From a virus, in the IMG/VR virus record IMGVR_UViG_3300017917_001441, positions 1-40,525 of that record: DNA of 40,525 nucleotides; one strand, 5' to 3'. Both the position numbers and the translations under genes were made by a program. This document shows positions 3,619 through 40,525 of the stretch, piece after piece. The notes under the pieces are model-generated. The model searched no databases. It saw only the letters and a program-made list of their open reading frames with translations, and was not told where the DNA came from. Within the stretch, counting starts at the first letter, position 1. The number at the start of each line of letters is the position of its first letter.

Positions 3619-3701
3619 ATTAATTATTAATCTCATGGGTCAACACCGAGAACTATACTCTCTGTCAAGCCCTTTGTCAACAACTTTTTGTGGTATATTT
3701 T

Positions 3702-7884: not shown

Positions 7885-9124
7885 AAAACAATGGCAAGAA
7901 TGGCAAGAAAGAAATCCTGCCAGTTCTTTTGCACATATTGATGAAGAACATATGAAAAAAGTCCTCATCGAGGATTTGACCTATGCTTCACAAATGGATG
8001 TGCGTGAATATACTTTATATCAAAAATGGTGTGAAGTAAAAGAACGATATCCACAACAAGAAGTTTCTACATTGTGGGGCCAAGAAATGCAAATGGTTGA
8101 TCCTGCACAAAGAGAATTGGTAAATGAAGTTAAAGCTAATTTCTGGATGCCAAAAGAACCTGATGATTTTGAGAAATTAAAACCTGTCATGGTATTATCA
8201 AATGGTGAAGGTGCTGAACGATGGAATGCCATTCGAACTTTCTCATCAACCATGAAAAACAATTCAAATATTGGCCGTAATCTATATTACATTGTTACTG
8301 ATGAAGTAACAAAAAAATATCTTGGAGTTATCTGTATCTCCTCAGACTTCCTGGACTTGACTCCGAGAGATAATGCAATTGGCTGGTCGAGAGATGTGAA
8401 AACACAGCAACACATGATTAATCACACCGCAATCGGTTCTACGATTGTACCATTACAACCGCTCGGTTTTAATTATATGGGTGGTAAATTACTTGCTCTG
8501 ATGTGTTTATCTGACACAGTTCAAAAAGATTGGAAAAAACAATATGGTGATGTTCTTGCTGGTGTCACAACAACATCATTGTATGGCAAAACAAAAGCTG
8601 GCGGACTATCTCAATATGATGGTCTCGAACATTGGAACCAGATGGGGTTCTCCTCTGGCTCAGTTGCCTTTGAACCAACCAGAGCAACCAAAAAATTGGT
8701 GTTTGATTGGATCAAAGAGAATCACACTAGAAAATACTTTGAGTGGTGGGAAGCCAAGAACACACAAGGACTTCCACTTAAACGAGACCACAAGAATCGG
8801 TCATTAAACTTTGCATATTCTAAACTACAAATACCAAAAGAATTGATTCGTACCGAACATCAACGTGGTATCTATTTTAGTCCTCTCTACAATAATACCA
8901 ATGAATTTCTCCGTAAGGAGATTACCGATTCTGAACTGATAAAATCATTTGATACCAGTGAAGAAGCTTTATCCAACATTTGGAAAACCAAATATGCTAA
9001 AGGTCGTATTCGGCAATTACAAAAGAAAAATAATGTTTCATATGAAACACTTTTCTATGATGACCTTATTGAATTATCTTGGGAAGAAACCAAGGCAAAG
9101 TATTTGCCACAAGTTGGCAGATAA
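7859..9124 (+). CDS. DUF4338/DruA-like protein, paralogue A
   Basis: A 421-residue protein whose middle (about 125-270) resembles the DUF4338 domain of Druantia DruA: 'KKYLGVICISS', an 'RDNAIGWSRD' segment, 'IVPLQPLGFNYMGGKLLAL', 'VQKDWKKQYGD' and 'TTSLYGKTK', then a tyrosine-aspartate-glycine turn. The protein encoded at 27094 shares the same block ('QPFGFNYLGGKL', 'TTSLYGSTK', 'SQYDGM'), so the two are paralogues. The DruA link is from memory of the family and needs a profile search. DruA acts in an anti-phage system, but the role of phage copies is unknown. The ATG overlaps the deformylase by 26 nt. Confidence 0.65.
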   Translation: MPTPIEFVEKQWQEWQERNPASSFAHIDEEHMKKVLIEDLTYASQMDVREYTLYQKWCEVKERYPQQEVSTLWGQEMQMVDPAQRELVNEVKANFWMPKEPDDFEKLKPVMVLSNGEGAERWNAIRTFSSTMKNNSNIGRNLYYIVTDEVTKKYLGVICISSDFLDLTPRDNAIGWSRDVKTQQHMINHTAIGSTIVPLQPLGFNYMGGKLLALMCLSDTVQKDWKKQYGDVLAGVTTTSLYGKTKAGGLSQYDGLEHWNQMGFSSGSVAFEPTRATKKLVFDWIKENHTRKYFEWWEAKNTQGLPLKRDHKNRSLNFAYSKLQIPKELIRTEHQRGIYFSPLYNNTNEFLRKEITDSELIKSFDTSEEALSNIWKTKYAKGRIRQLQKKNNVSYETLFYDDLIELSWEETKAKYLPQVGR

Positions 9125-10751: not shown

Positions 10752-11426
10752 ATGAAATTATCGAAAGATACCTTAGATGTTCTAAAAAACTTTGCCTCAA
10801 TCAACTCTGGTATTGAGTTTAAGAAAGGCAATACAATTCGTACCATGTCATCTGGCAAAACAGTCCTTGCCAAGGCCACATTGAAAGATGAGTTTCCACA
10901 AGACTTTTGTGTATATGACTTAAATCAATTTCTCAGCATTCATTCATCGTCAGATAGTACCGAAATTGACTTTGATGAAAAAAATGTTGTATTTATTTTT
11001 GGTCCAAAAAAATCAACCACATATCGTAAAACTGCCAGAGAAATGATTGTTACTGCACCAGACAAAGAATTATCTTTGCCATCCGTAGATATCACATTCA
11101 CACTTACTAAAGAAGATTTGGCTGATTTGTTAAAGCATGCTTCACTTATTCAATCATCACATGTTGCAGTAGAATCAGATGGTGAAACAATTAATTTATC
11201 AGCGTTCAATGCCAAAGATGATTCAGCAAACGTCCATAAATCGGAAATTGGTGAAGGCAATGGTAAAAAATTTAAAATGGTATTTCTAGTAGATAATTTG
11301 AAAATGATTTCTGGTTCTTATGATGTTGAAATCTCTGCAAAAGGTTTGGCTTCATTTAAAAACAAGAGTGTTGACCTACAGTATTGGGTTGCAACTGAAT
11401 CCAAAGAATCGAAATTTGAAGGATAA
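10752..11426 (+). CDS. gp45: gp45 sliding clamp
   Basis: The trimeric processivity clamp of the T4 replisome, which also couples replication to gp55-dependent late transcription. The 224 residues match T4 gp45 (228). The sequence starts with the family pattern 'MKLSKDTLDVLKNFASIN' and has two repeated clamp folds of about 110 residues, ending in 'FKNKSVDLQYWVA', close to the T4 C-terminus. It opens the operon gp45, small gene, gp44, nuclease-like gene, gp62, regA. Confidence 0.93.
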   Translation: MKLSKDTLDVLKNFASINSGIEFKKGNTIRTMSSGKTVLAKATLKDEFPQDFCVYDLNQFLSIHSSSDSTEIDFDEKNVVFIFGPKKSTTYRKTAREMIVTAPDKELSLPSVDITFTLTKEDLADLLKHASLIQSSHVAVESDGETINLSAFNAKDDSANVHKSEIGEGNGKKFKMVFLVDNLKMISGSYDVEISAKGLASFKNKSVDLQYWVATESKESKFEG

Positions 11427-17367: not shown

Positions 17368-17775
17368 ATGGCGTATTCAGATAAAGTTATAGACCATTAT
17401 GAAAACCCACGCAATGTGGGTAAAATGGATGCTGGTGACATCAATGTTGGTACAGGTATGGTTGGTGCTCCAGCCTGTGGTGATGTAATGAAATTACAGA
17501 TTCGTGTAGAAGATGGCATCATTAGAGATGCAAAATTCAAAACATATGGATGCGGTTCTGCAATTGCTTCAAGTTCATTGGTAACTGAATGGGTTAAAGG
17601 TAAGACACTTGAAGAAGCTGCACAAATTAAAAATACACAGATTGCTGAAGAACTTTCTTTACCACCAGTAAAGATTCACTGTAGCATTCTCGCTGAAGAT
17701 GCAATCAAAGCTGCAATTAATAACTATAAAGAGAAAACAGATGCAATTAACCACCAATGCTGCCAGCAAAATTAA
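17368..17775 (+). CDS. iscU: IscU iron-sulfur cluster scaffold
   Basis: IscU is the scaffold on which IscS and partners assemble [2Fe-2S] and [4Fe-4S] clusters. The 135-residue protein is very close to enterobacterial IscU from end to end. All three cluster cysteines are present (Cys37 in 'GAPACGDVM', Cys62 in 'YGCGSAIASSS', Cys105 in 'KIHCSILAEDA'), with Asp39, and the HscA-binding 'LPPVK' (98-102). It therefore should work with host IscS and HscA/B. The end, 'INHQCCQQN', is unusual and adds two cysteines. The gene looks like an acquisition from a proteobacterial host. erpA overlaps its end. Confidence 0.97.
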   Translation: MAYSDKVIDHYENPRNVGKMDAGDINVGTGMVGAPACGDVMKLQIRVEDGIIRDAKFKTYGCGSAIASSSLVTEWVKGKTLEEAAQIKNTQIAEELSLPPVKIHCSILAEDAIKAAINNYKEKTDAINHQCCQQN

Positions 17776-18067
17776 AGATTTAATTGTTGACCAAAATGAT
17801 CCAGATATTAAGTGTTTAAGAATATCTGTTAAGGGTGGTGGTTGTTCAGGATTTCAGTATGACTTTATGTTTGATAATGAACTCGATGATGAATCTGATT
17901 TTGTATTTGAAGCTGAAGATATAAAAGTGGCTGTTGATTACATGTCTATGGAATATCTAAAAGAAGCTACTATTGACTACGTTGAAAAGAATTTTGAATC
18001 TAGATTTGTAGTCAAAAATCCTGGAGCAAAACACACCTGTGGGTGTGGTTCATCTTTTTCTGCTTAG
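17741..18067 (+). CDS. erpA: ErpA/IscA A-type Fe-S carrier
   Basis: A 108-residue carrier that takes clusters from IscU to target apoproteins. The three ligand cysteines are in place: Cys35 in 'GGGCSGFQYDF', and Cys100 and Cys102 in 'HTCGCGSSFSA'. The sequence 'VDYMSMEYL' and the end of the protein are closer to ErpA than to IscA. I chose the ATG at 17741, which overlaps iscU by 35 nt; an earlier in-frame start at 17699 would add an unlikely basic tail. Its stop overlaps the end of the convergent desaturase gene. Confidence 0.95.
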   Translation: MQLTTNAASKIKDLIVDQNDPDIKCLRISVKGGGCSGFQYDFMFDNELDDESDFVFEAEDIKVAVDYMSMEYLKEATIDYVEKNFESRFVVKNPGAKHTCGCGSSFSA

Positions 18068-18760
18068 TTTGGCAAGTTTAAATTTCTCTAATACTTTGAT
18101 ATAGAACCAACCTATATCTAACTCAAACCATTTCCTACTAAGCTTGGCAGAACCAGCATCGTTATGGTGATTATTATGAAGCTCTTCGCCACCAATAATA
18201 ATACCCAAAGGGAAAATATTTCTAGATGATTCTCTCGTTTCATAGTTTCTATACCCCCAATAGTGACCTATTCCATTAATTACACCAGCAGCCCAAAACG
18301 GAATCCATAACATCTGTATCAACCAAACTAATATACCCCAATAACCAAATAACGCAAAACAAACTAAAAAGTAAATTGAAACACCCAAATAGTTTAAAGG
18401 TGTATACAAATTCTTTTCAATAGCATCATCTGGTGTTCCTTTACCAAACGCATTGACCATCAATTTATCTTTTGCAGACGTATTGTATAGTATTGCACCA
18501 CCAAATAAAACTTTCCAAATACCAAATAACTGTGGTGAATGTGGATCACCTTGATTATCGGTCATACCATGATGTTTACGATGAATAGCCACCCACTCCT
18601 TTGTAACCATACCTGTAGTCAACCATAACCAAAAACGAAAGAAGTGATTTATTAACGGATGAAATGTTACAGCTAGATGAGTTTGACTACGATGAAGATA
18701 TAGGGTTACGGCGATGATGGTGAGATGAGTTGTCACTAGGACATAGATTAGTTCGTTCAT
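18050..18760 (-). CDS. Acyl-lipid/acyl-CoA delta-9-type desaturase
   Basis: A 236-residue membrane diiron enzyme that puts a double bond into fatty acyl chains. The three histidine boxes are intact: 'HRSQTH' (23-28), 'HRKHH' (60-64) and 'HNNHH' (195-199), with the extra 'GHYWGYRN' histidine (166). Hydrophobic segments at about 5-22, 40-52 and 125-160 fit the family's membrane hairpins. The motif 'FWLWLTTGMVTKEWVAIHRK' is typical of proteobacterial desaturases, so it is probably host-derived. It is convergent with erpA, the two sharing 18 nt. A late-type element lies about 90 nt upstream on the minus strand. Confidence 0.93.
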   Translation of the reverse strand: MNELIYVLVTTHLTIIAVTLYLHRSQTHLAVTFHPLINHFFRFWLWLTTGMVTKEWVAIHRKHHGMTDNQGDPHSPQLFGIWKVLFGGAILYNTSAKDKLMVNAFGKGTPDDAIEKNLYTPLNYLGVSIYFLVCFALFGYWGILVWLIQMLWIPFWAAGVINGIGHYWGYRNYETRESSRNIFPLGIIIGGEELHNNHHNDAGSAKLSRKWFELDIGWFYIKVLEKFKLAKLSRKR

Positions 18761-25749: not shown

Positions 25750-27097
25750 GAACTTTCTAAGAAAAGTTTTACCATTTGTAAAGACAGAGTATTTTAGTGA
25801 TAGTGTAGAGAGAACTCTATTCAATGAAATTACATCGTTTACGGAAACTTATAATAGTCCGCCAACAACTGAAGCGCTTAGTATTGCCGTCAAAGAAAAG
25901 AGAAATCTTACGGCTGATGAGGTTCAGAGATGTGAAAATTATATTGTCGAAATTGAAAAGAATAAATCGGTTGAAACCGAAGTTCAATGGCTTATCGACA
26001 AAACGGAAAAGTTTTGCCAAGAAAAGGCTATATACAATGCAGTATTGGGATCTATTTCTATTCTCGATGGCAAAGATAAAACACACGATAAAGGTCAAAT
26101 TCCCAAGATATTGTCGGACGCTTTGGCAGTATCTTTCGATAATTCAGTAGGTCACGATTATTTACAGGACTCAGATGCTCGATATGAATTTTATCATAGA
26201 AAAGAGGAAAGAATACCTTTCGACTTGGACTACTTTAACAAAATCACAAAAGGTGGTTTACCTAACAAGACACTCAATATCGCTCTTGCTGGCACTGGTG
26301 TTGGTAAATCTCTTTTTATGTGTCATGTGGCTGCTGGGTGTATGGTTCAAGGCAAGAATGTATTATACCTCACTTTGGAAATGAGTGAAGAAAAGATTGC
26401 CGAGAGAATTGATGCAAACCTATTGAATGTAACCATTGATGATTTGATGGACTTACCAAAAGATATGTATGATAAGAAAGTGGCTAGAGTCCGTGAAAAG
26501 ACCACAGGTAAACTAATCATCAAAGAATATCCAACTGCATCAGCGTCCACTATCCATTTTAGGACACTATTAAATGAACTTAATCTCAAGAGGTCTTTTA
26601 TACCTGACATTATATTTGTTGACTATCTCAATATTTGTTGTAGTGCTCGTATTAAAGCTGGCAGCAATATTAATTCTTACACCTACGTTAAAGCAATTGC
26701 AGAAGAATTACGTGGCCTTGCTGTTGAGTTTAATGTTCCTATTGTATCTGCTACACAAACTACCCGTTCAGGATTTACTTCCAGTGATCCGGGACTTGAG
26801 GACACGAGTGAATCGTTCGGACTTCCCGCCACCGCAGATTTGATGTTTGCTTTGATTTCGAGTGAAGAACTAGAAGAACTTGGCCAAATCATGGTCAAAC
26901 AATTGAAGAATCGATATAATGATCCAACATTCCACAAACGATTTACTCTTGGTGTTGATAGAGGTAAAATGAAACTATATGATGTCGAACAGGCTGCACA
27001 GATGGGTATCGCTGATGCTGGCCATGATAAACCATTAAATACATTTGGTACCAGAGAAGAACGACCAAAAAAACAATTTAGTGGATTTAAAGTATGA
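25706..27097 (+). CDS. gp41: gp41 replicative DNA helicase (DnaB-like)
   Basis: The hexameric helicase of the T4 replisome, working with the gp61 primase. The 463 residues (T4: 475) show the N-terminal helical domain (1-150), Walker A 'GTGVGKS' (196-202), 'YLTLEMSEEKIAERID' (DnaB motif), Walker B 'IIFVDYLNI' and 'VSATQTTRSGF' with the arginine finger region. I chose the ATG at 25706; a TTG just before it is less likely. No primase gene lies next to it. Its TGA overlaps the DruA-like gene. Confidence 0.95.
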   Translation: MKLEQTILKNLIYNENFLRKVLPFVKTEYFSDSVERTLFNEITSFTETYNSPPTTEALSIAVKEKRNLTADEVQRCENYIVEIEKNKSVETEVQWLIDKTEKFCQEKAIYNAVLGSISILDGKDKTHDKGQIPKILSDALAVSFDNSVGHDYLQDSDARYEFYHRKEERIPFDLDYFNKITKGGLPNKTLNIALAGTGVGKSLFMCHVAAGCMVQGKNVLYLTLEMSEEKIAERIDANLLNVTIDDLMDLPKDMYDKKVARVREKTTGKLIIKEYPTASASTIHFRTLLNELNLKRSFIPDIIFVDYLNICCSARIKAGSNINSYTYVKAIAEELRGLAVEFNVPIVSATQTTRSGFTSSDPGLEDTSESFGLPATADLMFALISSEELEELGQIMVKQLKNRYNDPTFHKRFTLGVDRGKMKLYDVEQAAQMGIADAGHDKPLNTFGTREERPKKQFSGFKV

Positions 27098-28203
27098 TAC
27101 TGGCTAGAGAAGATGCTTTAGTATGTGCCAAAGCATTTAAAGATTATTTTGGTAACATCAATAGCATTGAAGAATATATGCGTGATGAAAAACTAAAGAA
27201 TCTTGACGATATACCACAAACATTATTTCCACTTGAAGATGATTTGTTTTCTGATTTCTCAATGCACCCCAAAGATATGAATATCGAAGTGTGTGAAATA
27301 CCAAATGATACATGGGAAAATTTACTTGCCATTACATCATCACACATCAATAAAGCACCTGTTGGTAGAAACATTCAATTGGCAGCCAAAGAGAAAAACA
27401 CAGGAAAGATTCTAGGATTCATTCGTTTGGGTTCACCTGTCATCTATATGCGACCACGCAATGAACTTCTTGGACAGGTGTTCTCGCAGAATCCTGATAC
27501 AACAAAACGATTTAATGATTCTTCTATGATGGGATTTGTCATTGTACCAAGTCAGCCATTTGGATTTAATTATCTTGGTGGCAAACTTATGGCAGCCATT
27601 TGTACCAGCCATGAAGTGAGAGAAATCTGTAATAAAAAATATAATATGAATCTTTGCCTATTTGAAACCACCAGTTTGTATGGTTCAACAAAGGGTGTTT
27701 CACAATATGATGGTATGAAACCTTACATTCGTTTTCAAGGTGTAACCGATTCTGATATGGTGCCAATGATGCACGGTGAACGATATACTCAATTAAAAGA
27801 GTTTGTAGAAAGCAAAGTTGGAGATATCTTAGAGGGCGATACAAAAACTACCAGTAGAAAACTCAGAATATTTACTAAGATTATTGCTCTTACTAAAGCC
27901 GCTTTGAAAGGAACAACTGAAGCGGAAGATTTTTCTTTAACGATTGAGAAAGCAAAATCATTAACAGAAAAGAAAAGATATTACACATCAAATTATGGTT
28001 ACAGTAACTACATCGATTATCTAGCCTGCAAAACAGATAAACTTTTACCAGGTGAAAACTACGATAAACATCATTTAAAAAATGTTATTGAATGGTGGCG
28101 GAGTAAAGCTATAAATAGGTACGAAACCCTCAAATCAGAAGGTAGATTACGAACAGAACTAGAAGTTTGGACTTCAGGTAAAGACATTCAAATTATCAGG
28201 TAA
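27094..28203 (+). CDS. DUF4338/DruA-like protein, paralogue B
   Basis: A 369-residue paralogue of the protein at 7859. Shared landmarks are 'VGRNIQLAAKEKNTGKILGF' (about 90-109; 'IGRNLYYIVTDE' in the other copy), 'VPSQPFGFNYLGGKLMAA', 'TTSLYGSTKGVSQYDGM' and the C-terminal region 'KSLTEKKRYYTSNYGYSN'. It lacks the first copy's RD-IGW segment, so the copies may differ in activity. It overlaps gp41 by 4 nt. As with copy A, the DruA link rests on remembered family patterns. Confidence 0.65.
   Translation: MILAREDALVCAKAFKDYFGNINSIEEYMRDEKLKNLDDIPQTLFPLEDDLFSDFSMHPKDMNIEVCEIPNDTWENLLAITSSHINKAPVGRNIQLAAKEKNTGKILGFIRLGSPVIYMRPRNELLGQVFSQNPDTTKRFNDSSMMGFVIVPSQPFGFNYLGGKLMAAICTSHEVREICNKKYNMNLCLFETTSLYGSTKGVSQYDGMKPYIRFQGVTDSDMVPMMHGERYTQLKEFVESKVGDILEGDTKTTSRKLRIFTKIIALTKAALKGTTEAEDFSLTIEKAKSLTEKKRYYTSNYGYSNYIDYLACKTDKLLPGENYDKHHLKNVIEWWRSKAINRYETLKSEGRLRTELEVWTSGKDIQIIR
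28110..28117 (+). promoter_or_regulatory. Possible internal late promoter (TATAAATA)
   Basis: An exact TATAAATA inside the end of the DruA-like gene, about 90 nt before the gene at 28205. A chance match is possible in AT-rich coding DNA, but the position fits late expression of the 460-residue protein. Confidence 0.3.
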
Positions 28204-29880: not shown

Positions 29881-30594
29881 ATGTCTGCTACTGTGATTAT
29901 ACCAACTACTGGTTCGCCAGAGGTGAAAACTGCCGTTGAATCTGTTTTAAATCAAAGTCATTATACAAAATGTTATGTTGTTATTGATGGTGATGACTAC
30001 ACAGACAGAACACTAGAAGTTCTTGGTTCTGCATTAGATGATGAAAGAGTTCATGTTTGTCCACTACCAATCAATGTCGGTGCCAATGGATTTTATGGTC
30101 ACCGTGTCTATGCCGCCTTCACACATTTAGTTGATACAGAATATGTTGCCTATCTCGACCAAGACAATTGGTTATATCGGTCTCATGTGGAAAACTGTAT
30201 CAAAACAATTAATACAAGAGGCTTAGATTGGTGTTATTCTTTACGCCAAGTATATAATAAACAAGGTAAGTTTGTTTGCTTTGATGACTGTGAATCTCTT
30301 GGCATCTGGCCAACCTATCACGGAGTTCATCACATAGATACTAATTGTTACTTCATTAAAACAGAAGTTGCAAATAAGATAGCAAGTGTTTGGCATGGCG
30401 GCTGGGGACAAGATAGAGTATTTCTACAAGCTATTACAAAACACTTTCCAAAATTCTATTGCACAGGCGAATATACAACCTGTTATCGTGTAGATGGTGG
30501 TAAAGGTTCTGTTAATGCAGAGTTCTTTGAAAATGGTAATAAAGTAATGAATGAAAAATATAATGGGAGTTATCCATGGCGTCAAAAAGCTTAA
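29881..30594 (+). CDS. GT2-family glycosyltransferase
   Basis: A 237-residue enzyme that begins with the GT2 pattern 'VIIPTTGSPEVKTAVESVLN' (5-24), then 'CYVVIDGDDYTDRT' (32-45), and a metal-binding 'AYLDQDNWLY' (about 88-97). It should transfer a sugar from a nucleotide donor in the cytoplasm. It opens a run of eight glycan genes and overlaps the next by 19 nt. The acceptor (virion glycan, DNA or host envelope) is unknown. Confidence 0.85.
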   Translation: MSATVIIPTTGSPEVKTAVESVLNQSHYTKCYVVIDGDDYTDRTLEVLGSALDDERVHVCPLPINVGANGFYGHRVYAAFTHLVDTEYVAYLDQDNWLYRSHVENCIKTINTRGLDWCYSLRQVYNKQGKFVCFDDCESLGIWPTYHGVHHIDTNCYFIKTEVANKIASVWHGGWGQDRVFLQAITKHFPKFYCTGEYTTCYRVDGGKGSVNAEFFENGNKVMNEKYNGSYPWRQKA

Positions 30595-31424
30595 TCATTG
30601 GTGCATTTACCAATTATAATTACAATCAATTAAAACCATGGGTCGAATCAATCGATGAGTGTGGTTTTACTGGCGACAAAGCCATGGTTGTTGGTAATGC
30701 TTCACAAGAAACAATCGGTGAACTTATCAAACGAGATTTCATCATCATTAAGATGCACGAAATTAATGCACCAATTCATGTGGCTCGTTTTCTATCAATC
30801 TATGACTTTCTTAAAAACACTTGGCAGAATTATAATCATGTGGTTACCACAGATGTCAAAGATGTTTACTTTCAAACCAACCCAATTGCATGGTTAGAAT
30901 TAAATCTTAAAGGCAAAAAACTAGTTGCCGGTTCTGAAGGTTTAAGATACAAAGACGAACCATGGGGTGATGAGAATCTCAGACAGGCTTATGGACCATA
31001 TGTGTATGAACAATTCAAACATAATGAGATATACAATGTAGGAACCATCGGTGGTGTGTCTGAATATGTAAAAGATATGATGTTCAATATTCTGTTCAAC
31101 GCAATCAACCGACCTATTCCTATTTGTGACCAGGCGGTGTATAATGTTCTGATTCAAACACAACCATTTAAAGATTCAATTTATTTTGCTAAACAATTGG
31201 ATGGTTGGGCTTGTCAGGCAGGTACCACGGTTGACCCATCTAAGATTGAATCATTCAGACCACATCTATTAGAACCAGAACCAAAGTTTGAGAATGGTAT
31301 TGTAAAGACTTCATTAGGTCGGCCATTTGCAATCGTGCATCAATATGACCGTGTGCCAGAATGGAAACAATTTATCAAAGAGAAATATAAACAAGAAGAA
31401 GTTTTAACTTTTAGGACAACATAA
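30576..31424 (+). CDS. GT-A-like glycosyltransferase domain protein
   Basis: A 282-residue protein whose layout fits a retaining nucleotide-sugar transferase: 'LIIGAFTNYNYNQLKPW' at the start, 'HVVTTDVKDVYFQTNP' (about 87-102, with a D-x-x-D in the place of DxD), and 'IYNVGTIGGVSEYV' and 'CDQAVYNVLIQ', as in GT8-like and DUF616-like proteins. It is coupled to both neighbours. Confidence 0.65.
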   Translation: MASKSLIIGAFTNYNYNQLKPWVESIDECGFTGDKAMVVGNASQETIGELIKRDFIIIKMHEINAPIHVARFLSIYDFLKNTWQNYNHVVTTDVKDVYFQTNPIAWLELNLKGKKLVAGSEGLRYKDEPWGDENLRQAYGPYVYEQFKHNEIYNVGTIGGVSEYVKDMMFNILFNAINRPIPICDQAVYNVLIQTQPFKDSIYFAKQLDGWACQAGTTVDPSKIESFRPHLLEPEPKFENGIVKTSLGRPFAIVHQYDRVPEWKQFIKEKYKQEEVLTFRTT

Positions 31425-31951
31425 TGGACTTTGAAAAAGAATATCAAGATGCATGTGCAAGAGATACTGACATACACGAGCATCTACCAATCATCTCCGA
31501 ATTAACATCACAATGCACCCATGTTACAGAACTTGGTGTTGGTTGGGCTCAAAGCACTCGTGCCTTTCTAAGATACAATGTAGAATTGCATAGTTACGAG
31601 TTTATGCCGCAACCTGGTATCCGTGAATTTTTTGAAGAAGCCCGTAATGCAGGTCGAAATGTTACGCTTCATGTTGATGACACTCGCAAAGTAGAAATTG
31701 CAGAAACAGACTTGATGTTGGTGGATAGTCTACATATCTATGAGCAGGTACAAAAAGAATTAGAATTACATGCCGGCAAAGTTCGTAAGTATATTCTATT
31801 TCATGATACCACATCATTTGCAGACCATGGTGAATTTGGTGGAAAAGGTATTTGGCCAGCAGTTCAAGAATTTATTGACAGTCATCCAGAATGGCAGTTA
31901 GTTGAACGCAGAACAAATAATAATGGATTGACGATATTGAAACGGGTTTAA
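31424..31951 (+). CDS. SAM-dependent methyltransferase-like protein (CmcI-like)
   Basis: A 175-residue Rossmann-like protein. 'HVTELGVGWAQSTRAFLRY' (32-50) resembles a SAM-binding motif I, 'DLMLVDSLHIYEQVQKEL' (about 95-112) and 'KYILFHDTTSF' (about 120-130) match the cephalosporin-hydroxylase-like/methyltransferase group. It may methylate a sugar in this cluster. It is short, lacking a clear substrate cap. Confidence 0.7.
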   Translation: MDFEKEYQDACARDTDIHEHLPIISELTSQCTHVTELGVGWAQSTRAFLRYNVELHSYEFMPQPGIREFFEEARNAGRNVTLHVDDTRKVEIAETDLMLVDSLHIYEQVQKELELHAGKVRKYILFHDTTSFADHGEFGGKGIWPAVQEFIDSHPEWQLVERRTNNNGLTILKRV

Positions 31952-31952
31952 T

Positions 31953-32954
31953 ATGAAAATTTTTATTACAGGAATTGCAGGCTTTTTAGGTAGTCATTTG
32001 GCTGATAGAATGTTGGAGTTGGGCCATGAAGTTATTGGTAATGATACATTGATTGGTGGTTATCGTGATAATGTGCCTAAAGATGCAAAATTTCATATAG
32101 TGGATTGTTGTGATGTTGAAAGCATGACATTCTATATGCAAGGCGCTGATATTGTAATTCATACAGCCGCAACAGCACATGAAGGTCTTTCTGTTTTCTC
32201 TCCAAGTTTTATTACCAAAAATATTTTTGAAGCCTCTGTCGCAACCATTTCAGCAGCAATTCAAAATAAAGTAAAACGATTTGTATATTGTTCTTCAATG
32301 GCACGTTATGGTAATCAACCTCACCCTTTTACCGAAGATATGATGCCAAAGCCAATTGATCCTTATGGTGTTGCTAAAGTGGCTGGAGAAGATGTATTAA
32401 AGATTCTATGTGAAACTCATGGTATGGAATGGAACATTGCAGTGCCACATAATATTGTTGGCCCTCGCCAAAGATATAATGATCCATTCCGAAACGTAAT
32501 GAGTATTATGATTAATCGTAATCTCCGTGGTTTACCGGCAATTATTTATGGTGACGGATTACAAACTAGGTGTTTCTCATATGTTGGTGATTGTGTTGAG
32601 TGTTTAGAAAAAATGGCTCTTGATTCTAAAGTTGTAAACCAAATTATTAACATTGGTCCTGATGATGGTACGGTAACAATTAAAGAACTTGCGAAATTAG
32701 TTTCTAAAGCAACAGATTTTGAAGGTGAAGTCATTTATGTTCCAGACAGACCAAGAGAAGTTAAACATGCAGATTGTTCTGCTGACAAAGCTCGTTGGTT
32801 ATTAAATTATGAAACAAAAACAACGTTAGAACAATCGATACAAGAAACGGTAGAATATATTAAACAAAAAGGACCAAAAGAGTTTGATTATTCTTATCCA
32901 TTAGAAATTAACACCAAAAAAACACCTAAAACTTGGTCAGAAAGATTAATATAA
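31953..32954 (+). CDS. NAD-dependent sugar epimerase/dehydratase (SDR)
   Basis: A 333-residue extended SDR. The NAD site 'ITGIAGFLGSHLADRML' (4-20), the catalytic serine in 'VYCSSMARYGN', the YxxxK motif in 'DPYGVAKVAGED' (about 136-147) and 'HNIVGPRQRYNDPFRNVMS' (about 171-189) are all present. It probably converts a UDP- or dTDP-sugar for the neighbouring transferases, like UDP-glucose 4-epimerase. Its TAA overlaps the next ATG. Confidence 0.9.
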   Translation: MKIFITGIAGFLGSHLADRMLELGHEVIGNDTLIGGYRDNVPKDAKFHIVDCCDVESMTFYMQGADIVIHTAATAHEGLSVFSPSFITKNIFEASVATISAAIQNKVKRFVYCSSMARYGNQPHPFTEDMMPKPIDPYGVAKVAGEDVLKILCETHGMEWNIAVPHNIVGPRQRYNDPFRNVMSIMINRNLRGLPAIIYGDGLQTRCFSYVGDCVECLEKMALDSKVVNQIINIGPDDGTVTIKELAKLVSKATDFEGEVIYVPDRPREVKHADCSADKARWLLNYETKTTLEQSIQETVEYIKQKGPKEFDYSYPLEINTKKTPKTWSERLI

Positions 32955-33721
32955 TGACATCCATATCCTTTTTTCATATAGCAGCTTATCCCGAATCTGC
33001 TAAAGTTATTATTGAAAATGCAAGAAAACACCATTCAAATAATTTTTATTTCCTTGGCGTTGATGGGAAACACAACCTTAAACAAACATCAGAAAAAAAT
33101 AATTGTCATTATGTAAAATTCGAACCTATAGGACCATTAATAGCACCACAAGGATGGAATTTAAACAAATCTTTAGAATTTTTAAATCGTTTTTACACGG
33201 CTTGCCAAATGGCCAAAACATCACATATAATTATGATGGAAGATGATGTGTTGATATTAAAACCAATTACAATTAATCCTGAATGGGAACATGCCTGTGC
33301 TGACACAAAAATTGGTAATGTGATACCAGAACCTGTGCATGATTTGATTGAACAACATTGCGGTAAACGACCGACATTTAAGCAATATGGAGCTGGTGGC
33401 GGTTCAATATTCAAAGTTAAAACATTTTTAGAATATTATGATACAAATATACAATGGTTTAAAAAACATTTTGATACGATACAATCTTATTACCCAACCA
33501 TAGGTTATCTGGACAGTTTTATGAATGTGTATTACTTTTTGGCTGGTAAAGATTATTCTGTAAATTATCGAAGAGCTGACACACATAACCACAAACCAGG
33601 TTTCGATTATGAATCATTTATAAGTAAACTATCACCAGAAATTGAAATATTGAATAACTATAAAAAATATTATTGGCCATCAGAAAATGAGGTCATAACT
33701 TTTAATACTGCACTAGCATGA
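32954..33721 (+). CDS. Predicted glycosyltransferase
   Basis: A 255-residue protein with 'ISFFHIAAYPESAKVIIENA' (4-23) and the acidic 'IIMMEDDVLILKP' (about 92-104) as the likely metal/nucleotide-sugar site, then 'FKQYGAGGGSIF' and 'YLDSFMNVYYFLAG'. I chose the ATG at 32954, which overlaps the previous stop. The fold fits GT-A, but the family is not certain. Confidence 0.65.
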   Translation: MTSISFFHIAAYPESAKVIIENARKHHSNNFYFLGVDGKHNLKQTSEKNNCHYVKFEPIGPLIAPQGWNLNKSLEFLNRFYTACQMAKTSHIIMMEDDVLILKPITINPEWEHACADTKIGNVIPEPVHDLIEQHCGKRPTFKQYGAGGGSIFKVKTFLEYYDTNIQWFKKHFDTIQSYYPTIGYLDSFMNVYYFLAGKDYSVNYRRADTHNHKPGFDYESFISKLSPEIEILNNYKKYYWPSENEVITFNTALA

Positions 33722-34521
33722 ATGACATTACGATAGTAACTGCTTTCTTTGATATTGGTCGAAGTGGCTGGACTCCAGACAAAGGATTGCCACACTACCT
33801 ACATCGAACCACGGAGACTTATCTACAACGATTTGGTTATTTGGCCAAATTAAATAATCCTATGGTCATCTTTACATCAAAAGAATTTGCCAAAGAAATA
33901 CAGTTTATTCGGCAAAACAAACCAACAGATATATTAGTAGTTGATTTTAAAAACAACTTTACAAAATTGAGAAATGAAATTCAAACGGTTCAAAGTAATA
34001 CAGAATTTCAATCTAAAATAAATCCCATGCAAGTAAAAAATCCAGAATACTGGAGTGCTGACTACGTTCTCGTTAATATGTTGAAAGCATCATTTGTTCA
34101 CCAAGCCATAAAACAAAATTTGATTAAAACAGATTTAATTTCTTGGCTTGATTTTGGTTATTGTCGTGAAGAATCTACACTTAACGGTGTTCAACATTGG
34201 CATTATACATTTAACAAAGATAAGATACACTTCTTTAATCTCAAAGATTGGAAAGAAGGAACATATATTGAAGATGTTATTTTTAATAATGATGTTCACA
34301 TTACAGGTCCTTGTATTGTTGCCGGTAAACAAATGTGGCCAGTATTGGAAGCATTAATCCATCACAATTTAGAAGAACTGTTTAAAAATAATTTGATTGA
34401 TGATGACCAGACTTTATTACTAATGTCTTATCTTCAAAAGCCAGAAATATTTGAATTACATAAAGTGAACAGTAACGATTGGTTTATTGTATTTAAGGAA
34501 TATAATGTTAATACACATTAG
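33718..34521 (+). CDS. HtrL/WlaTC-like glycan biosynthesis protein
   Basis: A 267-residue protein matching the HtrL/YibB/WlaTC pattern: 'TIVTAFFDIGRSGW' (5-18), 'YLQRFGYLAKLNNPMVIFTS' (about 35-54), 'SADYVLVNMLKASFVHQAI' and 'SWLDFGYCRE' (about 143-152). Relatives occur in lipooligosaccharide gene clusters, which supports an LPS-like or virion glycan for this operon. Confidence 0.8.
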   Translation: MNDITIVTAFFDIGRSGWTPDKGLPHYLHRTTETYLQRFGYLAKLNNPMVIFTSKEFAKEIQFIRQNKPTDILVVDFKNNFTKLRNEIQTVQSNTEFQSKINPMQVKNPEYWSADYVLVNMLKASFVHQAIKQNLIKTDLISWLDFGYCREESTLNGVQHWHYTFNKDKIHFFNLKDWKEGTYIEDVIFNNDVHITGPCIVAGKQMWPVLEALIHHNLEELFKNNLIDDDQTLLLMSYLQKPEIFELHKVNSNDWFIVFKEYNVNTH

Positions 34522-35227
34522 TTGCACTGCAAATTTGGGAGATTTTGCCAACGCTTTGCCTGTTATATCAGGATTATCTTTATCTGATGGTGGCCGTCCA
34601 GTTGACCTCATTATTCGTGGTGAAATGAGAAAGTTTGTTGGTATCAAAGACCTATTATTACAACAACCATGTATCAATTCAATTGAGTTTGATGATGAAG
34701 TATTTTTTAATGGTGCAATTAACCTAAGTTCTTGGACAAGAATGGATCAGAATGATCCAAATCGTCCAGTAGAAACTTGCCGATATGAAAATTGGATTCG
34801 TGACCACTACCAAGTTAATTTTCAAGTTGATGATAACTTTGAATTGATGATTGAAGATGCACCTTATGAAGATTTCAGTAACAAGTATATTATTGGTGAC
34901 CGTTGGAATCATCACACTATTGATACACGCAGAAAAACACAAGTAGTTAGAGATGGTGTTGATCCTGATCCGAGTAAAGTTGAATATCTAGATTATAGTA
35001 AGTCACTCATGCACAATTTGAATCTTATCAAATATAGTGCAAAGCCTTTTATCAGCACATTCACAGGTATTGGTATTCTTGCAGACTTAATGAATAAAGA
35101 AACGATTGTGTGTTGGGACGAAGATATGAGAATGTGGGACGGCCATCCTGTTGAGTTTGATTTCAAACGTCATTATTATGGTAATCGTAAATCAAAATTA
35201 GTTTATGTGAAAGATGTTACACTATGA
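34505..35227 (+). CDS. GT9-like (heptosyltransferase-like) protein, copy 1
   Basis: A 240-residue protein. 'ISCTANLGDFANALPVISGL' (4-23) resembles the N-terminal GD-xxxALP motif of GT9 heptosyltransferases, and 'FISTFTGIGILADLMNKETI' the C-terminal donor region. I chose the ATG at 34505, which overlaps the previous gene's end. It is shorter than GT9 enzymes (about 330), so each of the tandem copies may be one reduced enzyme. Its stop overlaps copy 2. Confidence 0.6.
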   Translation: MLIHISCTANLGDFANALPVISGLSLSDGGRPVDLIIRGEMRKFVGIKDLLLQQPCINSIEFDDEVFFNGAINLSSWTRMDQNDPNRPVETCRYENWIRDHYQVNFQVDDNFELMIEDAPYEDFSNKYIIGDRWNHHTIDTRRKTQVVRDGVDPDPSKVEYLDYSKSLMHNLNLIKYSAKPFISTFTGIGILADLMNKETIVCWDEDMRMWDGHPVEFDFKRHYYGNRKSKLVYVKDVTL

Positions 35228-35940
35228 TTATTAATATTGAGCCAGGCACCTTTGGCACAGTTCGTAATGGTGATATGATTGCTGTTGCAAACGTATTAGA
35301 ACACATACGAAAAACAAATAATAATCCTCTAATTCAATTTCATTTAAAACCTGGTAATGTTAGCGATGATACACATTGTCAGACATTCTATGAAATCATG
35401 TTGAAGATGACTAACTATTTTTCAATAGAACCAGGTGACCAATCGTTACCTTGGAGAAAAGTAAATGTTTGGGACTTCCGTGATATATCTGGTGATTTGG
35501 TAAAGATAAAAAATATTGCACCGATGGAAAAGAAAATTGTGGTCTTTCCATTATTTGATGCGCCATATAATGTGTGGAGAAATTGGCCTCAACCAGTTTA
35601 CGAACAAATTATTAAGAGATTTTCCACCGAAGAATATAAAGATTATGAAAAAATAATTTGTATCAAAGGACATTTTGGTGAATCTTGCCAATTTGAAGGT
35701 TGGCGATATTCTACCAACTTTGTGCAGAATTATTACCACATTACCACAGCCGAAGTGTTTGTGGGTGGTGACACAGGTTCTAGCCACTTTGCTTGGGCTC
35801 TTGACAGAGGACCTAAAGACCTGTTATACTATGGATCTAGCCGAGGCCTTGTTCATACTCTACCGTTCTATCTCATGGAAGGTAAAGGTAAAATGACAAC
35901 CTACTGGTTGGATTTTGAAGGTACCAAATGGAACATTTAA
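35224..35940 (+). CDS. GT9-like protein, copy 2
   Basis: A 238-residue protein in which 'NIEPGTFGTVRNGDMIAVAN' starts the first domain, 'VFPLFDAPYNVWRNWPQPVY' (about 103-122) resembles the GT9 donor-side segment, and 'VFVGGDTGSSHFAWAL' (about 178-193) matches the D-x-G-x-x-H signature of GT9. It ends the glycan cluster. The following 110 nt hold a late promoter and no gene. Confidence 0.65.
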   Translation: MIINIEPGTFGTVRNGDMIAVANVLEHIRKTNNNPLIQFHLKPGNVSDDTHCQTFYEIMLKMTNYFSIEPGDQSLPWRKVNVWDFRDISGDLVKIKNIAPMEKKIVVFPLFDAPYNVWRNWPQPVYEQIIKRFSTEEYKDYEKIICIKGHFGESCQFEGWRYSTNFVQNYYHITTAEVFVGGDTGSSHFAWALDRGPKDLLYYGSSRGLVHTLPFYLMEGKGKMTTYWLDFEGTKWNI

Positions 35941-35997
35941 GGTCGTATATATCGAACCCAATAATTCTAAGGTTGTACCATAAAAATTAAGAAGTTG

Positions 35998-36005
35998 TAT
36001 AAATA
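35998..36005 (+). promoter_or_regulatory. Consensus T4 late promoter (TATAAATA)
   Basis: An exact TATAAATA in the gap between the glycan cluster and the gene at 36051, which has an AAGGAA ribosome site. It marks the start of a late, probably structural, operon that runs to the window's end. Confidence 0.8.
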
Positions 36006-36050
36006 AGCAACCGGCAACCAAAGTGTGTTGCAAATCTAGTAAGGAAATCA

Positions 36051-37226
36051 ATGCTGTCTTTTTTAACGTTTCTGAAAGAGGAAACTCAGGAAGTTAGTGG
36101 CAAACTTAAGCATATTCATCATGCTGAGGATCGTCCACTCTTTCACGGAGCGGCTGGCTTTGAACATGCCAGAGATGCATTGAATACCGCACATGAACAC
36201 ATTAAGTCTGGGGGCCATAGTTCACACCTCACAATGAAATATGACGGTTCACCATCTCTTGTTTTTGGTCATCATCCAGAAAATGGTAAGTTTTTTGTGG
36301 CCAGTAAGTCTGCTTTCAATAAGAATCCTAAGATTAACTATACAGAAAAAGATATTGAAAAGAATCACGGACACGCACCAGGATTGGTGGCAAAATTAAA
36401 AGACGCCTTGCACCTAAAGAAAGTCGTTCCAAAGAAGGGAGTGTATCAAGGTGACGTTATGTTTGGTCATGATGATAAACACGAACACAAAGGTGGAGTA
36501 TCATTCACACCAAATACCATAAAGTATACTGCCAAAGGCGAAGATGCCGAAAGAATTAAAAAGGCAAAAGTTGGTGTAGTTGTGCATACTCAATACCACG
36601 GTAAAAACATTACCGATATGAAAGCTGACCCACATCCAGATGTTCACAATTTCAAACAACATGAAGATGTCTGGCATAAATCCGCAGAACATGATACTAG
36701 TAAAGTAAACTATTCAGAAAAAGCACAAGAACAATATAAAAAGCATATTGCAGCTGCACAGGAATTACATGATAAACATGGTGCAGCCATGTATCGTGCA
36801 ACACATCCACATAGTGGTGAAGCTGGTGGTCTGGCAACCTACATTAATCAAACTGTTCGTAAAGATGAAACTCCTACGGCCAAAGGATTACAGAAACACA
36901 TCACCAATATATACAAAAAGGCGGCATCAAAACTGAAAACTCCAGCTGCACAATCTCGTAAAGAGACCGAACTAAAAACACATATAGACCACATAAAAGG
37001 TAATGAAGAACATTACAATAATCTGTTGAAGATGCACCATCATTTGCAACAGGCCAAAAATGTTTTAGTGAAAACTCTAAATCAGAATACAGGCGGTTTG
37101 GAACATCACATAGATAGTAAAAAGACTGATCCAGAGGGATTTGTAGTTCATCATGCAGGTGAGCCAACAAAGTTAGTTAATAGAGCAGAGTTCGCCAAAG
37201 CAAATTTACTTAAAGTAAGAAAATGA
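36051..37226 (+). CDS. Nucleotidyltransferase/ligase-motif protein (DUF6267-like), likely packaged
   Basis: A 391-residue, histidine- and lysine-rich protein conserved in T4-like marine phages. It shows motifs of covalent nucleotidyltransferases (DNA/RNA ligases): 'KYDGSPS' (63-69, motif I with the would-be adenylated Lys63), 'GVYQGDVMF' (130-138, motif III position), 'EGFVVH' (362-367, motif IV) and 'TKLVNR' (373-378, motif V). The helical region between III and IV is longer than usual. The N-terminus 'MLSFLTFLKE' resembles the capsid-targeting peptide of T4 internal proteins. Ligase activity is not shown, and the family name is from memory. Confidence 0.65.
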   Translation: MLSFLTFLKEETQEVSGKLKHIHHAEDRPLFHGAAGFEHARDALNTAHEHIKSGGHSSHLTMKYDGSPSLVFGHHPENGKFFVASKSAFNKNPKINYTEKDIEKNHGHAPGLVAKLKDALHLKKVVPKKGVYQGDVMFGHDDKHEHKGGVSFTPNTIKYTAKGEDAERIKKAKVGVVVHTQYHGKNITDMKADPHPDVHNFKQHEDVWHKSAEHDTSKVNYSEKAQEQYKKHIAAAQELHDKHGAAMYRATHPHSGEAGGLATYINQTVRKDETPTAKGLQKHITNIYKKAASKLKTPAAQSRKETELKTHIDHIKGNEEHYNNLLKMHHHLQQAKNVLVKTLNQNTGGLEHHIDSKKTDPEGFVVHHAGEPTKLVNRAEFAKANLLKVRK

Positions 37227-39022
37227 AATCATTTTTAGAGTTAGTTGAAGAAACCAAACAAGGTGAGAAACACCATGTAATGACCTTTGGTCGTATGAAT
37301 CCTCCTACAACTGGTCACTTAAAACTCATTCACAAAGTAAAAGAAGTTGCAGACAAACATAACGCAACACACTCCGTTATTGCCTCTCATTCACAAGATT
37401 CTAAAAAGAATCCACTATCCGGTGAACAAAAAGTCAAACACCTAAAACGGTACTCACCAGGTACTCATTTTGAAACATCCTCAAAAGAAAAACCAAGTAT
37501 ATTTCACCATGCGGCTGAAGCACACAAGAAAGGCGTAACTCATCTTCATGTGGTAGTTGGTTCAGACCGTGTAAAAGAATTCAAACATTCGCTGAACAAA
37601 TACAATGGTGTTAAAGGTGCTCACGGACACTACGATTTCAAAAAGATTACTGTTCACTCTGCTGGTCACCGTGATCCGGATGCAGAAGGCACAGAAGGCA
37701 TGTCTGGTAGTAAGATGCGTCACCACGCTTCTACAGGAAACTATAAAGAATTTAAAAAAGGTGTTCCTGAACATGTTGCTGACCACCATGCAAAAGAACT
37801 ATACCATGATACAAGAAAGGGTATGGGACTGCATGAGAATATCAATCGTGGACTATTCAAAGCAATTTTTGTTACAGGTGGTCCAGGTTCTGGTAAAGAT
37901 ATTATCATCCGTGAAGCAATTCCAGAAGGTCGTGCTGTAGAACTCAATGTTACACAGGCATTTGATTACCTTGCTGACAAACAGAAACTATCTGAAAAAA
38001 CCAATGATTTTCGTAGAGAAGCTATTCGTAACCGTGGACCACTAATCATCAACAGCCCAGCCGATAGTATTGATAAAATCAATCATATTAAAGAAGAACT
38101 GGAAGACTTGGGATACAGAACCATGATGGTTTTTGTAAACACTACCAATGAAGTCAGTCAAGAAAGAAATACCAAATTATCTCGTATGATGGTGGAATCT
38201 ATTCGGTATGACAAGTGGTTGCAAGCTCAGAAAAACAAAGAGCTTTTTGCTGAATCATTTAGAAGGTTTATACAAATTGACAACACAGGTTCATTGGAGA
38301 GTATTGAAGAAGATATAACTCAAACTTACCTAAATATCAATGAATTTATTGAAACTCGAACCTATGGCGATATATCATTATCGTGGCTAGAAAAGCACGG
38401 TAAATTAAATATAGGTGACAACAAAATTAAGGAAGAAAAAAATGTTCAAAGCACTAATAGATTTACTAAGATTAAAACCAATCCAGAACTCCGAGCAGTT
38501 GGCCTCGATAGTTTGCCCGCCGACAACCGAGCAAACGAGCCCCAAACAGACGACATCCGATATAACGCAGGAAAGCGAACAAAAACCTACATCTTCCGCA
38601 CCTACAGTGAAGCGTCAGAACCAAGGCTCGAAATCAGGCCAGGCGAAAAAGAAACCAACTTCTCCAAAAACAAAGAAAAAGTAAAGAGTAAGAAGCGGTT
38701 CACCGATGCACCAACGGTTAGTCAAAGGTTAAGAAATACGGCCGGCATCGGTCCAGAATTTGATACACGCCAGCAGGGAACAGTATATCCCATGTCCGGT
38801 CTAGGCGATGTAACATATAGAGAACAAAAAGAATTTAATAGTTTTAGAAAAACAATTAAAGAGTATAAAGGTTTTCAGAATGACCCTACCATATCAGGTA
38901 TGGGTGTTGGTGGCGTTCTGAATGGTGCTACAAATCTTGAACCTATGCAATCTTATAAAGACGCAGACCGTAATATTGGAACACAAATAAACATTAAAAA
39001 GAAAAAGAAACAGGAGAAATAA
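37223..39022 (+). CDS. Nucleotidylyltransferase-P-loop kinase fusion, likely packaged
   Basis: A 599-residue fusion. Domain 1 (about 18-200) is a cytidylyltransferase-like fold with 'GRMNPPTTGH' (23-32, the HxGH-type site), 'GSDR' (113-116) and 'SGSKMRHH' (161-168, the ISSTxxR-type motif), as in NMN adenylyltransferases. Domain 2 (about 210-360) is a P-loop kinase with 'GGPGSGKD' (219-226). This pairing recalls NadR. The tail (400-599) is charged and low in complexity, and overlaps a second reading frame at 38442. The N-terminus 'MKSFLELVEE' looks like a capsid-targeting peptide. It overlaps the upstream gene by 4 nt. Confidence 0.85.
   Translation: MKSFLELVEETKQGEKHHVMTFGRMNPPTTGHLKLIHKVKEVADKHNATHSVIASHSQDSKKNPLSGEQKVKHLKRYSPGTHFETSSKEKPSIFHHAAEAHKKGVTHLHVVVGSDRVKEFKHSLNKYNGVKGAHGHYDFKKITVHSAGHRDPDAEGTEGMSGSKMRHHASTGNYKEFKKGVPEHVADHHAKELYHDTRKGMGLHENINRGLFKAIFVTGGPGSGKDIIIREAIPEGRAVELNVTQAFDYLADKQKLSEKTNDFRREAIRNRGPLIINSPADSIDKINHIKEELEDLGYRTMMVFVNTTNEVSQERNTKLSRMMVESIRYDKWLQAQKNKELFAESFRRFIQIDNTGSLESIEEDITQTYLNINEFIETRTYGDISLSWLEKHGKLNIGDNKIKEEKNVQSTNRFTKIKTNPELRAVGLDSLPADNRANEPQTDDIRYNAGKRTKTYIFRTYSEASEPRLEIRPGEKETNFSKNKEKVKSKKRFTDAPTVSQRLRNTAGIGPEFDTRQQGTVYPMSGLGDVTYREQKEFNSFRKTIKEYKGFQNDPTISGMGVGGVLNGATNLEPMQSYKDADRNIGTQINIKKKKKQEK
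38442..38684 (+). CDS. Candidate overprinted gene inside the kinase-fusion gene
   Basis: An 80-codon ORF in another frame of the host gene. It has an AAGGAAG ribosome site 6-7 nt before the ATG. It encodes 'MFKALIDLLRLKPIQNSEQ', then a Thr/Pro/Gln-rich stretch, and ends in a basic 'KKKPTSPKTKKK'. The base composition of the overlap is unlike its surroundings (many C and G codons in both frames), as expected under double coding. A CTAAATA lies at 38330. It could also be chance. Confidence 0.4.
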   Translation: MFKALIDLLRLKPIQNSEQLASIVCPPTTEQTSPKQTTSDITQESEQKPTSSAPTVKRQNQGSKSGQAKKKPTSPKTKKK

Positions 39023-39023
39023 A

Positions 39024-40525
39024 ATGTTTGTCAATAAACTTAATATGGATAGTATCGCAGAAGCAGTCAAAAAATGTATGGCTGAAGATGACCTAGAAGA
39101 AACTGGTCTCCGTAAAGCTGCATACGCTGCTCACTCTAAAGGTGAGAAAATGTTTACATTTAAAGGTAAAACATATCCTGTTAAAATTCAAGGCGAAGAT
39201 ATTTCTTATGGCGAAGCCGTTAAAGAAGAAACTGAGATTGATGAAGCTATGTCTGGTGAAGTTACTCGTACCAAAACAGGTCTAGTTCATCGTTCCACTA
39301 AAGCATACGGTGGTTCTAAACCAGAAAAACATGTCGTTGATACACTTAAAGGTCCAAAGACAAAAGACTTAATTGGAAAAGATGTAAAAGATGCATTGAA
39401 AACTCGTGGTCGTTACGATGAAGAAATGGAATTTAAAAATAAATTACTTGAATCTTTAAAAGGTAAACAACACAAGATTGATAAGAATAAAAATAACAAA
39501 ATTGATGCACAAGACTTTGCAATGCTTCGTGCACAGAAAAATGAAGAATTAGAATTAGACGAAGCTTCATGTGAAGCCGAAGTAAAGAAACATGAAAAGA
39601 AAATGCACGGTAAAGATGGTGAAGTTGCCAAGCATGTAGAAAAAATGCACAAAGAAGATGTTGAACAGATTGATGAGAAAAATGTGCCAACAAGTCCAGA
39701 AAAATGGGCTCGTGCAAAAGCTGCTGCCAAATCTAAATTTGCCGTATACCCATCTGCCTACGCCAACGGTTGGGCTGCAAAGAAATACAAAGCAATGGGT
39801 GGCGGCTGGAAATCAGTAAGTGAAGAAGCTGAAGAATTAGATGAAAAAGCAGGTTACTCCGCCAAAGCTGCTCATGCAGGTAAAGATATTGGCAAACCAG
39901 GCAAAGCATTTGGTATGATTGCAAAGAAAGCTGGTGAGCGTTATGGTTCAGCCGAAGCTGGCAAGCGTGTTGCTGGTGCCATTCTTGCTAAATTGCGTAA
40001 AGAAGATGAAGATTGGTCAGACGAAGATATTGACGCTTTGTTAGAGGTATATGAATTAGAAGAGCGTAAAATGACCGATTCCGAAATGAAAAAGCGTGAA
40101 GATATTGTTAAAGGTATGAAGAAAAGTTTGGCTGGTTTTAAACAGCGTTATGGTGCTCGTGCAAAAGATGTGATGTATGCCACAGCGACCAAACAAGCTA
40201 TGAAAGAAGATACGGTTGAAGAAGAAATTGATCCGAATGTTCGTACCAAAGATACATTAAAAGGACAAGAACCAACTTCACAAAAAGATGATATTGGTCC
40301 TGGTTCTGATGGCAAATCCACAAAAGTAAAATTTCGTGGAGGTCCAATGAAAGAAGAAGTAAAAAAGTCTGATATTCCAGCTTTCATTCGCAAAGCTCGT
40401 GGTGTTACAGAAGGTAAACATCCTGAGTCTGATACTGTTCCTTTTGTAACAAATGCGGATCAACCACCTTTTGACAAACCATACACTAAAATTGGTAAGA
40501 CAGTAACAGATAAATCTGGTGCAAA
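39024..40525 (+). CDS. Modular acidic internal/prohead-core-like protein (partial)
   Basis: An open frame running off the window; 500 residues are visible, starting 1 nt after the previous stop with AGGAGA upstream. It is built of short modules: an EF-hand/dockerin-like loop 'DKNKNNKIDAQDF' (153-165), a basic module 'KWARAKAAAKSKFAVYPSAY' (227-246) with 'AMGGGWK' (DUF5872-like), 'ERYGSAEAGKRVAGAILAKL' (305-324), and 'GFKQRYGARAKDVMYATATK' (371-390). Acidic spacers separate them: IDE-A (72-75), LDE-A (178-181), IDE-K (216-219), LDE-K (272-275) and LEE-R (345-348), each fitting the T4 prohead protease rule I/L-x-E. It is likely a packaged polyprotein or scaffold-core protein. Confidence 0.7.
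   Translation, partial: MFVNKLNMDSIAEAVKKCMAEDDLEETGLRKAAYAAHSKGEKMFTFKGKTYPVKIQGEDISYGEAVKEETEIDEAMSGEVTRTKTGLVHRSTKAYGGSKPEKHVVDTLKGPKTKDLIGKDVKDALKTRGRYDEEMEFKNKLLESLKGKQHKIDKNKNNKIDAQDFAMLRAQKNEELELDEASCEAEVKKHEKKMHGKDGEVAKHVEKMHKEDVEQIDEKNVPTSPEKWARAKAAAKSKFAVYPSAYANGWAAKKYKAMGGGWKSVSEEAEELDEKAGYSAKAAHAGKDIGKPGKAFGMIAKKAGERYGSAEAGKRVAGAILAKLRKEDEDWSDEDIDALLEVYELEERKMTDSEMKKREDIVKGMKKSLAGFKQRYGARAKDVMYATATKQAMKEDTVEEEIDPNVRTKDTLKGQEPTSQKDDIGPGSDGKSTKVKFRGGPMKEEVKKSDIPAFIRKARGVTEGKHPESDTVPFVTNADQPPFDKPYTKIGKTVTDKSGA

Follow-up and report, generated by a model that had tools for sequence, protein, structure and literature searches.

A conserved T4-like capsid-targeting peptide on candidate packaged enzymes of a putative late operon in freshwater T4-like phages

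In this study, we analysed a 40,525-base virus record, referred to below as the window, which belongs to a T4-like phage from freshwater. It starts directly downstream of the major capsid gene, with tail tube, UvsY and UvsW first, in the order that follows gp23 on the relative G001, and it encodes two components of late transcription, the late sigma factor gp55 (3690-4244; phrog_234, E 2e-63) and the sliding clamp gp45 (10752-11426). A near-identity DNA search of positions 30001-40525 against phages gave no match. Three consecutive plus-strand genes, p1, p2 and p3, occupy positions 36051-40523 behind the octamer TATAAATA. The first of them (p1, 36051..37226, plus strand) encodes a 391-aa protein of the family DUF6267 (PF19782, E 4e-94), with a score of 316 bits against a gathering cut-off of 27. 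It carries the ligase-type motifs K63-x-D-G, Q133-G-D, E362-G-x-V and K374, of which K63, D65, G66, Q-G-D, E362, G363, V365 and K374 are invariant over 54 sequences. K-x-D-G, E-G-x-V and K in this order constitute the motif order of covalent nucleotidyltransferases. The AF2 model of p1 has a pLDDT of 87, with residues 1-19 mostly disordered. The start of p2 (37223..39022, plus strand, 599 aa) overlaps the end of p1 (ATGA), and database matches (PF01467, E 4e-6; PF06414; phrog_3041, E 9e-63) as well as the structure model describe a cytidylyltransferase/NMNAT-like domain followed by a P-loop kinase and a disordered tail. The nucleotidyltransferase domain modelled at 37271..37837 (plus strand) displays a T-x-G-H and an M-S-G-S-K-M-R motif, with GH of T/HxGH and SxxxR invariant in 31 diverged sequences, while the kinase domain (37850..38356, plus strand) has the Walker A motif GGPGSGKD and finds adenylate kinase and Pnkp from C. 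thermocellum in Foldseek. The third gene, p3 (39024..40523, plus strand), is open at the window end, with 500 aa read.

In T4, the first ten residues of IPIII are enough for head targeting, and mutations assign residues 4 and 7 to targeting and residues 8 and 10 to processing; gp21 cleaves after L/I-x-E, and the internal proteins are ejected into the host (PMC9026906). The peptide MLSFLTFLKE at the start of p1 (36051..36080, plus strand; predicted cut after E10) is conserved at exactly these four positions. Among 34 distinct relatives, F4 and E10 are found in all, position 7 is F in 32 and Y in 2, L8 is kept in 33 with L or I in all 34, and positions 2, 5 and 6 vary freely. For the peptide MKSFLELVEE of p2 (37223..37252, plus strand; cleavage predicted behind LVE or at E10), none of 31 distinct relatives departs from M1, K2, F4 or E10 and all follow the pattern M-K-[ST]-F...E10, whereas position 7 is L or I in 30 of the 31 and position 8 is V, I, L or Y. 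Since p2 carries L7/V8 where T4 has F7/I8, it matches the T4 peptide less closely than p1 does. The closeness of both N-termini to the T4 IPIII start, claimed in the preliminary description of this DNA, consequently holds for p1 with positions 4, 7, 8 and 10 kept, and in a looser form for p2.

We then took a census with a motif drawn from the T4 peptides and the two peptides named in that description, which recovered T4 IPII and IPIII as positive controls. The motif was matched at 57 of 3043 start-region ATGs, compared with 21 of 9142 internal ATGs. The search for the same peptide in other genes, suggested earlier for the full genome, was run on the relatives' contigs, where most matches lie in one cluster around p1 and p2. 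DUF6267 proteins of a marine clade related to methylophage Melnitz bear the same tag in 35 of 47 distinct N-termini, those of the HTVC008M clade begin with a shortened stub such as MELLNEDK (3 of 24 match the motif), and no tag was found on DUF6267 of the cyanophages examined. The tag is therefore lost on DUF6267 in HTVC008M-like phages and in cyanophages, so that packaging of p1 is not universal, and we rejected universal packaging of DUF6267 on account of this absence and shortening. Homologues without the peptide, which had been named as part of what would speak against packaging, thus do exist in these two groups.

Further small tagged ORFs were observed along the way. A 54-aa ORF of T4 (NC_000866, 18966-19130) with the start MKTFKEFIKED is similar to tagged ORFs of 63 aa in the lake phages (G002 at 60773, G004 at 60284), and a small tagged family, MKSFKSFLSESVNISGDFNGNLY, lies beside terminase and virion genes in S-SCSM1 (44215-44535) and S-SZBM1 (122311-122628) and is absent from the virion lists.

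The T4-type late promoter TATAAATA ahead of the three genes, reported as exact in the preliminary description, was confirmed as an exact octamer at 35998..36005 (plus strand), 45 nt upstream of the p1 ATG. With four copies observed in the window against a chance mean of 4.7, the octamer alone is weak evidence, and we discarded its count in the window as an argument in itself. Upstream of p1, it is exact in 63 of 79 relatives at a distance of 42-51 nt, with 15 more showing at most one mismatch, and it also stands 28-29 nt upstream of the gp22 scaffold gene on the relatives G001, G002, G004 and G006, so that p1 and the scaffold gene have the octamer in common. This conserved promoter suggests that the p1 operon may be expressed late. 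Between promoter and p1 start lies a leader hairpin, GCAAC-CAAAGTGT-GTTGC (36014..36031, plus strand), with a fixed loop of 8 nt and compensatory changes on both sides of all five stem pairs (98% of cells paired). On the relatives' contigs scanned it occurs before p1 only, except for one unrelated-looking match (G007 at 3251) that does not precede p1, and no Rfam family was matched. The hairpin could act in translational control or as an mRNA-stability element.

The window starts after gp23 and does not include the prohead protease and scaffold genes. On relatives' contigs, a gp21-type protease and an L/I-x-E scaffold co-occur with p1/p2, and the portal gene gp20 and gp21 were found on four contigs that also bear p1. 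The gp22 scaffold of the relatives has 12-16 L/I-x-E sites and gp23 a single one at residue 50, a distribution as would be expected for T4-type maturation. The search for gp21 upstream of gp23, proposed as a check, was run on the relatives, whose contigs carry gp20, gp21, gp22 and gp23.

Nine L/I-x-E sites were counted in p3 compared with 4.2 expected (P 0.015). The module KNVPTSPEKWARAK... (39678..39845, plus strand), which is DUF5872-like, follows directly after QIDE. Among the sequences compared, this module appears in 8 distinct contexts and starts exactly after [LI]-x-E in 8/8; in three of them, MKTFIEFINEAEILDE^, MKKFNEFITEVENLEE^ and MLRFKAFLNEAEQLDE^, it stands directly behind a tag in a gene composed of tag and module. 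Module boundaries at L/I-x-E match the pattern predicted for a cargo chain separated by the protease, and the several such sites noted earlier between the p3 modules are borne out. The claim that all three genes share features of T4 internal proteins has to be narrowed, as the tag is present on p1 and p2 and no capsid-targeting peptide was found at the start of p3, which we accordingly dismissed as a tagged protein.

Independent information comes from cyanophage virions. In published proteomes, p2-type enzymes were detected by mass spectrometry in virions of S-SM1 (T4-GC190; PMC3037559), S-SCSM1 (ORF91; PMC9602691), S-SZBM1 (S-SZBM1_140; PMC9146016, Table 1) and S-CREM2 (gp154; PMC10665884, Table 3). 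From the genomes, their N-termini read MKKFSAFLNE, MKSFLQFLKE, MRFRQFIIE and MKNFSSFLTE, respectively, and the tag is thus present on 4/4 of these virion-detected enzymes. The virion list of S-CREM2 includes each of its three exact-motif proteins, namely gp6 (a SAM lyase), gp136 and gp154. The untagged DUF6267 proteins S-SZBM1_141 and S-CREM2 gp87 are absent from their virion lists, the two that were checked, which fits tag-dependent packaging and is not its refutation. Pooled over three phages, 5 tagged proteins were detected compared with 1.3 expected for the exact motif (P 0.003) and 2.2 expected for a loose motif (P 0.047); since the strict motif was fixed after matches had been seen, the weaker P of about 0.05 should be borne in mind. 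In this test, we included one variant that is shorter by a single residue and set aside one match at an internal start without annotation; two further exact-motif proteins, S-SZBM1_191 and S-SCSM1_30, were missed in the virions. The S-CREM2 SAM lyase (OR473000, 3837-5081), which carries the exact peptide MKDFDSFLEE, is likely an injected anti-restriction enzyme.

We therefore consider it likely that p1 and p2 are targeted to the capsid and processed there; the virion evidence stems from cyanophage p2 orthologues outside the clade of the window. An equally high confidence applies to our best explanation as a whole, in which p1-p3 make up a late operon that encodes internal head proteins, the phage being a T4-like relative of the Kyanoviridae. 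Packaging through the tag and cutting by gp21, as put forward in the preliminary description, is well supported by the position-specific conservation, the late promoter in common with the scaffold gene, the occurrence of gp21, gp22 and gp23 on the contigs of relatives and the tagged p2 orthologues detected in virions, while the proposed delivery with the DNA is extrapolated from T4. We propose a model in which residues 4 and 7 of p1 and p2 would dock the proteins to the scaffold core, gp21 would cut L/I-x-E at the end of the peptide and the resulting p1* and p2* would be free in the head. The predicted cleavage products would then leave the head together with the DNA into the host, by analogy to the T4 internal proteins. 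p3 is a probable further core protein, from which cleavage between the modules would release small proteins. With tagged relatives of p2 in purified virions, it is probable that these phages bring finished enzymes into the host along with their DNA.

Such enzymes would most likely be needed before phage gene expression, with NAD(H)-type nucleotides or the ends of RNA as their substrates; each of these two roles is possible, though on its own less likely than not. RNA repair and NAD restoration are both compatible with the folds found, and an enzymatic role is speculative. For RNA ends, DUF6267 would be a divergent covalent nucleotidyltransferase, similar to an RNA ligase, and the p2 kinase would heal 5' ends, both directed against host anticodon nucleases. 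This possible but uncertain function is consistent with the KxDG, EGxV and K motifs of p1, with the RNA ligases that are the first named non-family matches in the viral library BFVD (E 0.008-0.013) and with the similarity of the p2 kinase domain to bacterial Pnkp (Foldseek, TM 0.62 on target). The fungal tRNA ligase Trl1 ranks first among PDB structures for p1, but at an E of 0.16 this match is not significant, neither is the profile comparison (hhalign) with T4 Rnl1, and no Pfam ligase family was matched. We consequently rejected DUF6267 as an established RNA ligase, this being unproven. The designation of p1 as a ligase-motif protein is retained with regard to its motifs, with weak support from the fold.

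Alternatively, p2 would be a NadR-like NMN adenylyltransferase and ribosylnicotinamide kinase delivered for NAD salvage, refilling NAD drained by host defence. This assignment, which we likewise hold only tentatively, agrees with the domain order of NadR, with a Foldseek E of 1e-6 and with an earlier proposal that virion NMNATs refill NAD. However, the better score belongs to ATP sulfurylase/APS kinase (1e-8), and by curated model p2 was rejected both as NadR, with 16.5 bits for the NCBIfam model TIGR01526 far under its cut-off of 341, and as PPAT, below cut-off. p2 shares with NadR and ATP sulfurylase-APS kinase the succession of nucleotidyltransferase and P-loop kinase and differs from them by low sequence similarity.

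It is unlikely that the proteins, although targeted and cleaved, are components of the core for head assembly or DNA condensation, as T4 gp67 and gp68 are, instead of delivered enzymes. The lysine-rich, disordered or modular p2 tail and p3 and a promoter identical to that of the scaffold gene would suit such a function, but the catalytic motifs of p1 (K63, D65, G66, E362, K374; 54 sequences) and p2 (GH, SxxxR; 31) are invariant across diverged sequences, which argues for catalysis. With the prohead core proteins gp22, gp67 and gp68, p3 has many L/I-x-E sites and, as predicted from the promoter, late expression in common; its modules, in contrast, are mobile between proteins and stand alone behind the tag in other phages. 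Still less probable is that the N-terminal stretch forms an amphipathic helix with a different task, serving to dock to other proteins or to contact a membrane or a polymerase, on proteins that act late in the cell and reach virion preparations as contaminants. The cyanophage proteome authors allow that abundant soluble proteins might co-purify, and some exact-motif proteins went undetected. Against this reading, the conserved positions match the T4 determinants exactly, E10 included, one module follows the tag in some genes and a bare L/I-x-E site in others, and untagged DUF6267 from the same operon is missing in the two virion lists checked.

Compared to known systems, p1 and p2 resemble T4 IPI-IPIII (Tequatrovirus) in their 10-residue N-terminal peptide with aromatic 4, F7, I/L8 and E10 (looser in p2), in their late promoter and in the gp21 protease of the genome group. 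The T4 cargo consists of small restriction inhibitors, whereas p1 and p2 are large, have conserved catalytic motifs and belong to another clade with other hosts. The virion NMNAT/cytidylyltransferases of cyanophages have a nucleotidyltransferase domain homologous to that of p2, lie for the most part in the same genomic block and bear a similar N-terminal tag; p2 differs by its fused P-loop kinase with long tail and its tagged DUF6267 companion. That NMNAT-like proteins occur in virions and might enter the host has been reported previously, and the available parts of these accounts mention neither a targeting peptide nor cleavage of the enzymes; a report of a capsid-targeting sequence in cyanophages was likewise not evident in open-licence papers. 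The tag as explanation of packaging, its presence on DUF6267, the co-tagged set, the loss of the tag from sister clades and the chain of modules in p3 seem to be new, none having been found in the literature searched.

T4-like cyanophages and pelagiphages belong to the most common viruses of the ocean. Several of the virion proteomes contain enzymes whose route into the particle was unexplained and for which the authors could not exclude contamination. A tag matching the mutation-mapped T4 signal would account for the entry of such enzymes into particles, would predict host-ejected hypothetical proteins across hundreds of genomes and, if true, would mean that the T4 delivery route serves enzymes as well as small anti-restriction proteins. 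Tentatively, we suggest that T4 relatives of the Kyanoviridae type, in lakes as well as oceans, share a head-loading tag that delivers an enzyme starter kit. Its members may be a protein resembling RNA ligases and a nucleotidyltransferase-kinase, joined by a polyprotein that would be cut within the capsid into several small proteins, so that repair of RNA or NAD would be active ahead of phage gene expression, and the ejected proteome could be read from the tag.

Further genes of the window were recorded. Glycosyltransferase-like, epimerase and methyltransferase-like genes (29881-35940) lie immediately upstream of the p1 late promoter, and two related genes (7859-9124 and 27094-28203) both belong to phrog_19197. 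IscU-like (NifU_N) and IscA-like iron-sulphur cluster genes overlap at 17368-18067 beside four tRNA genes, with a fatty acid desaturase (18050-18760) on the opposite strand.
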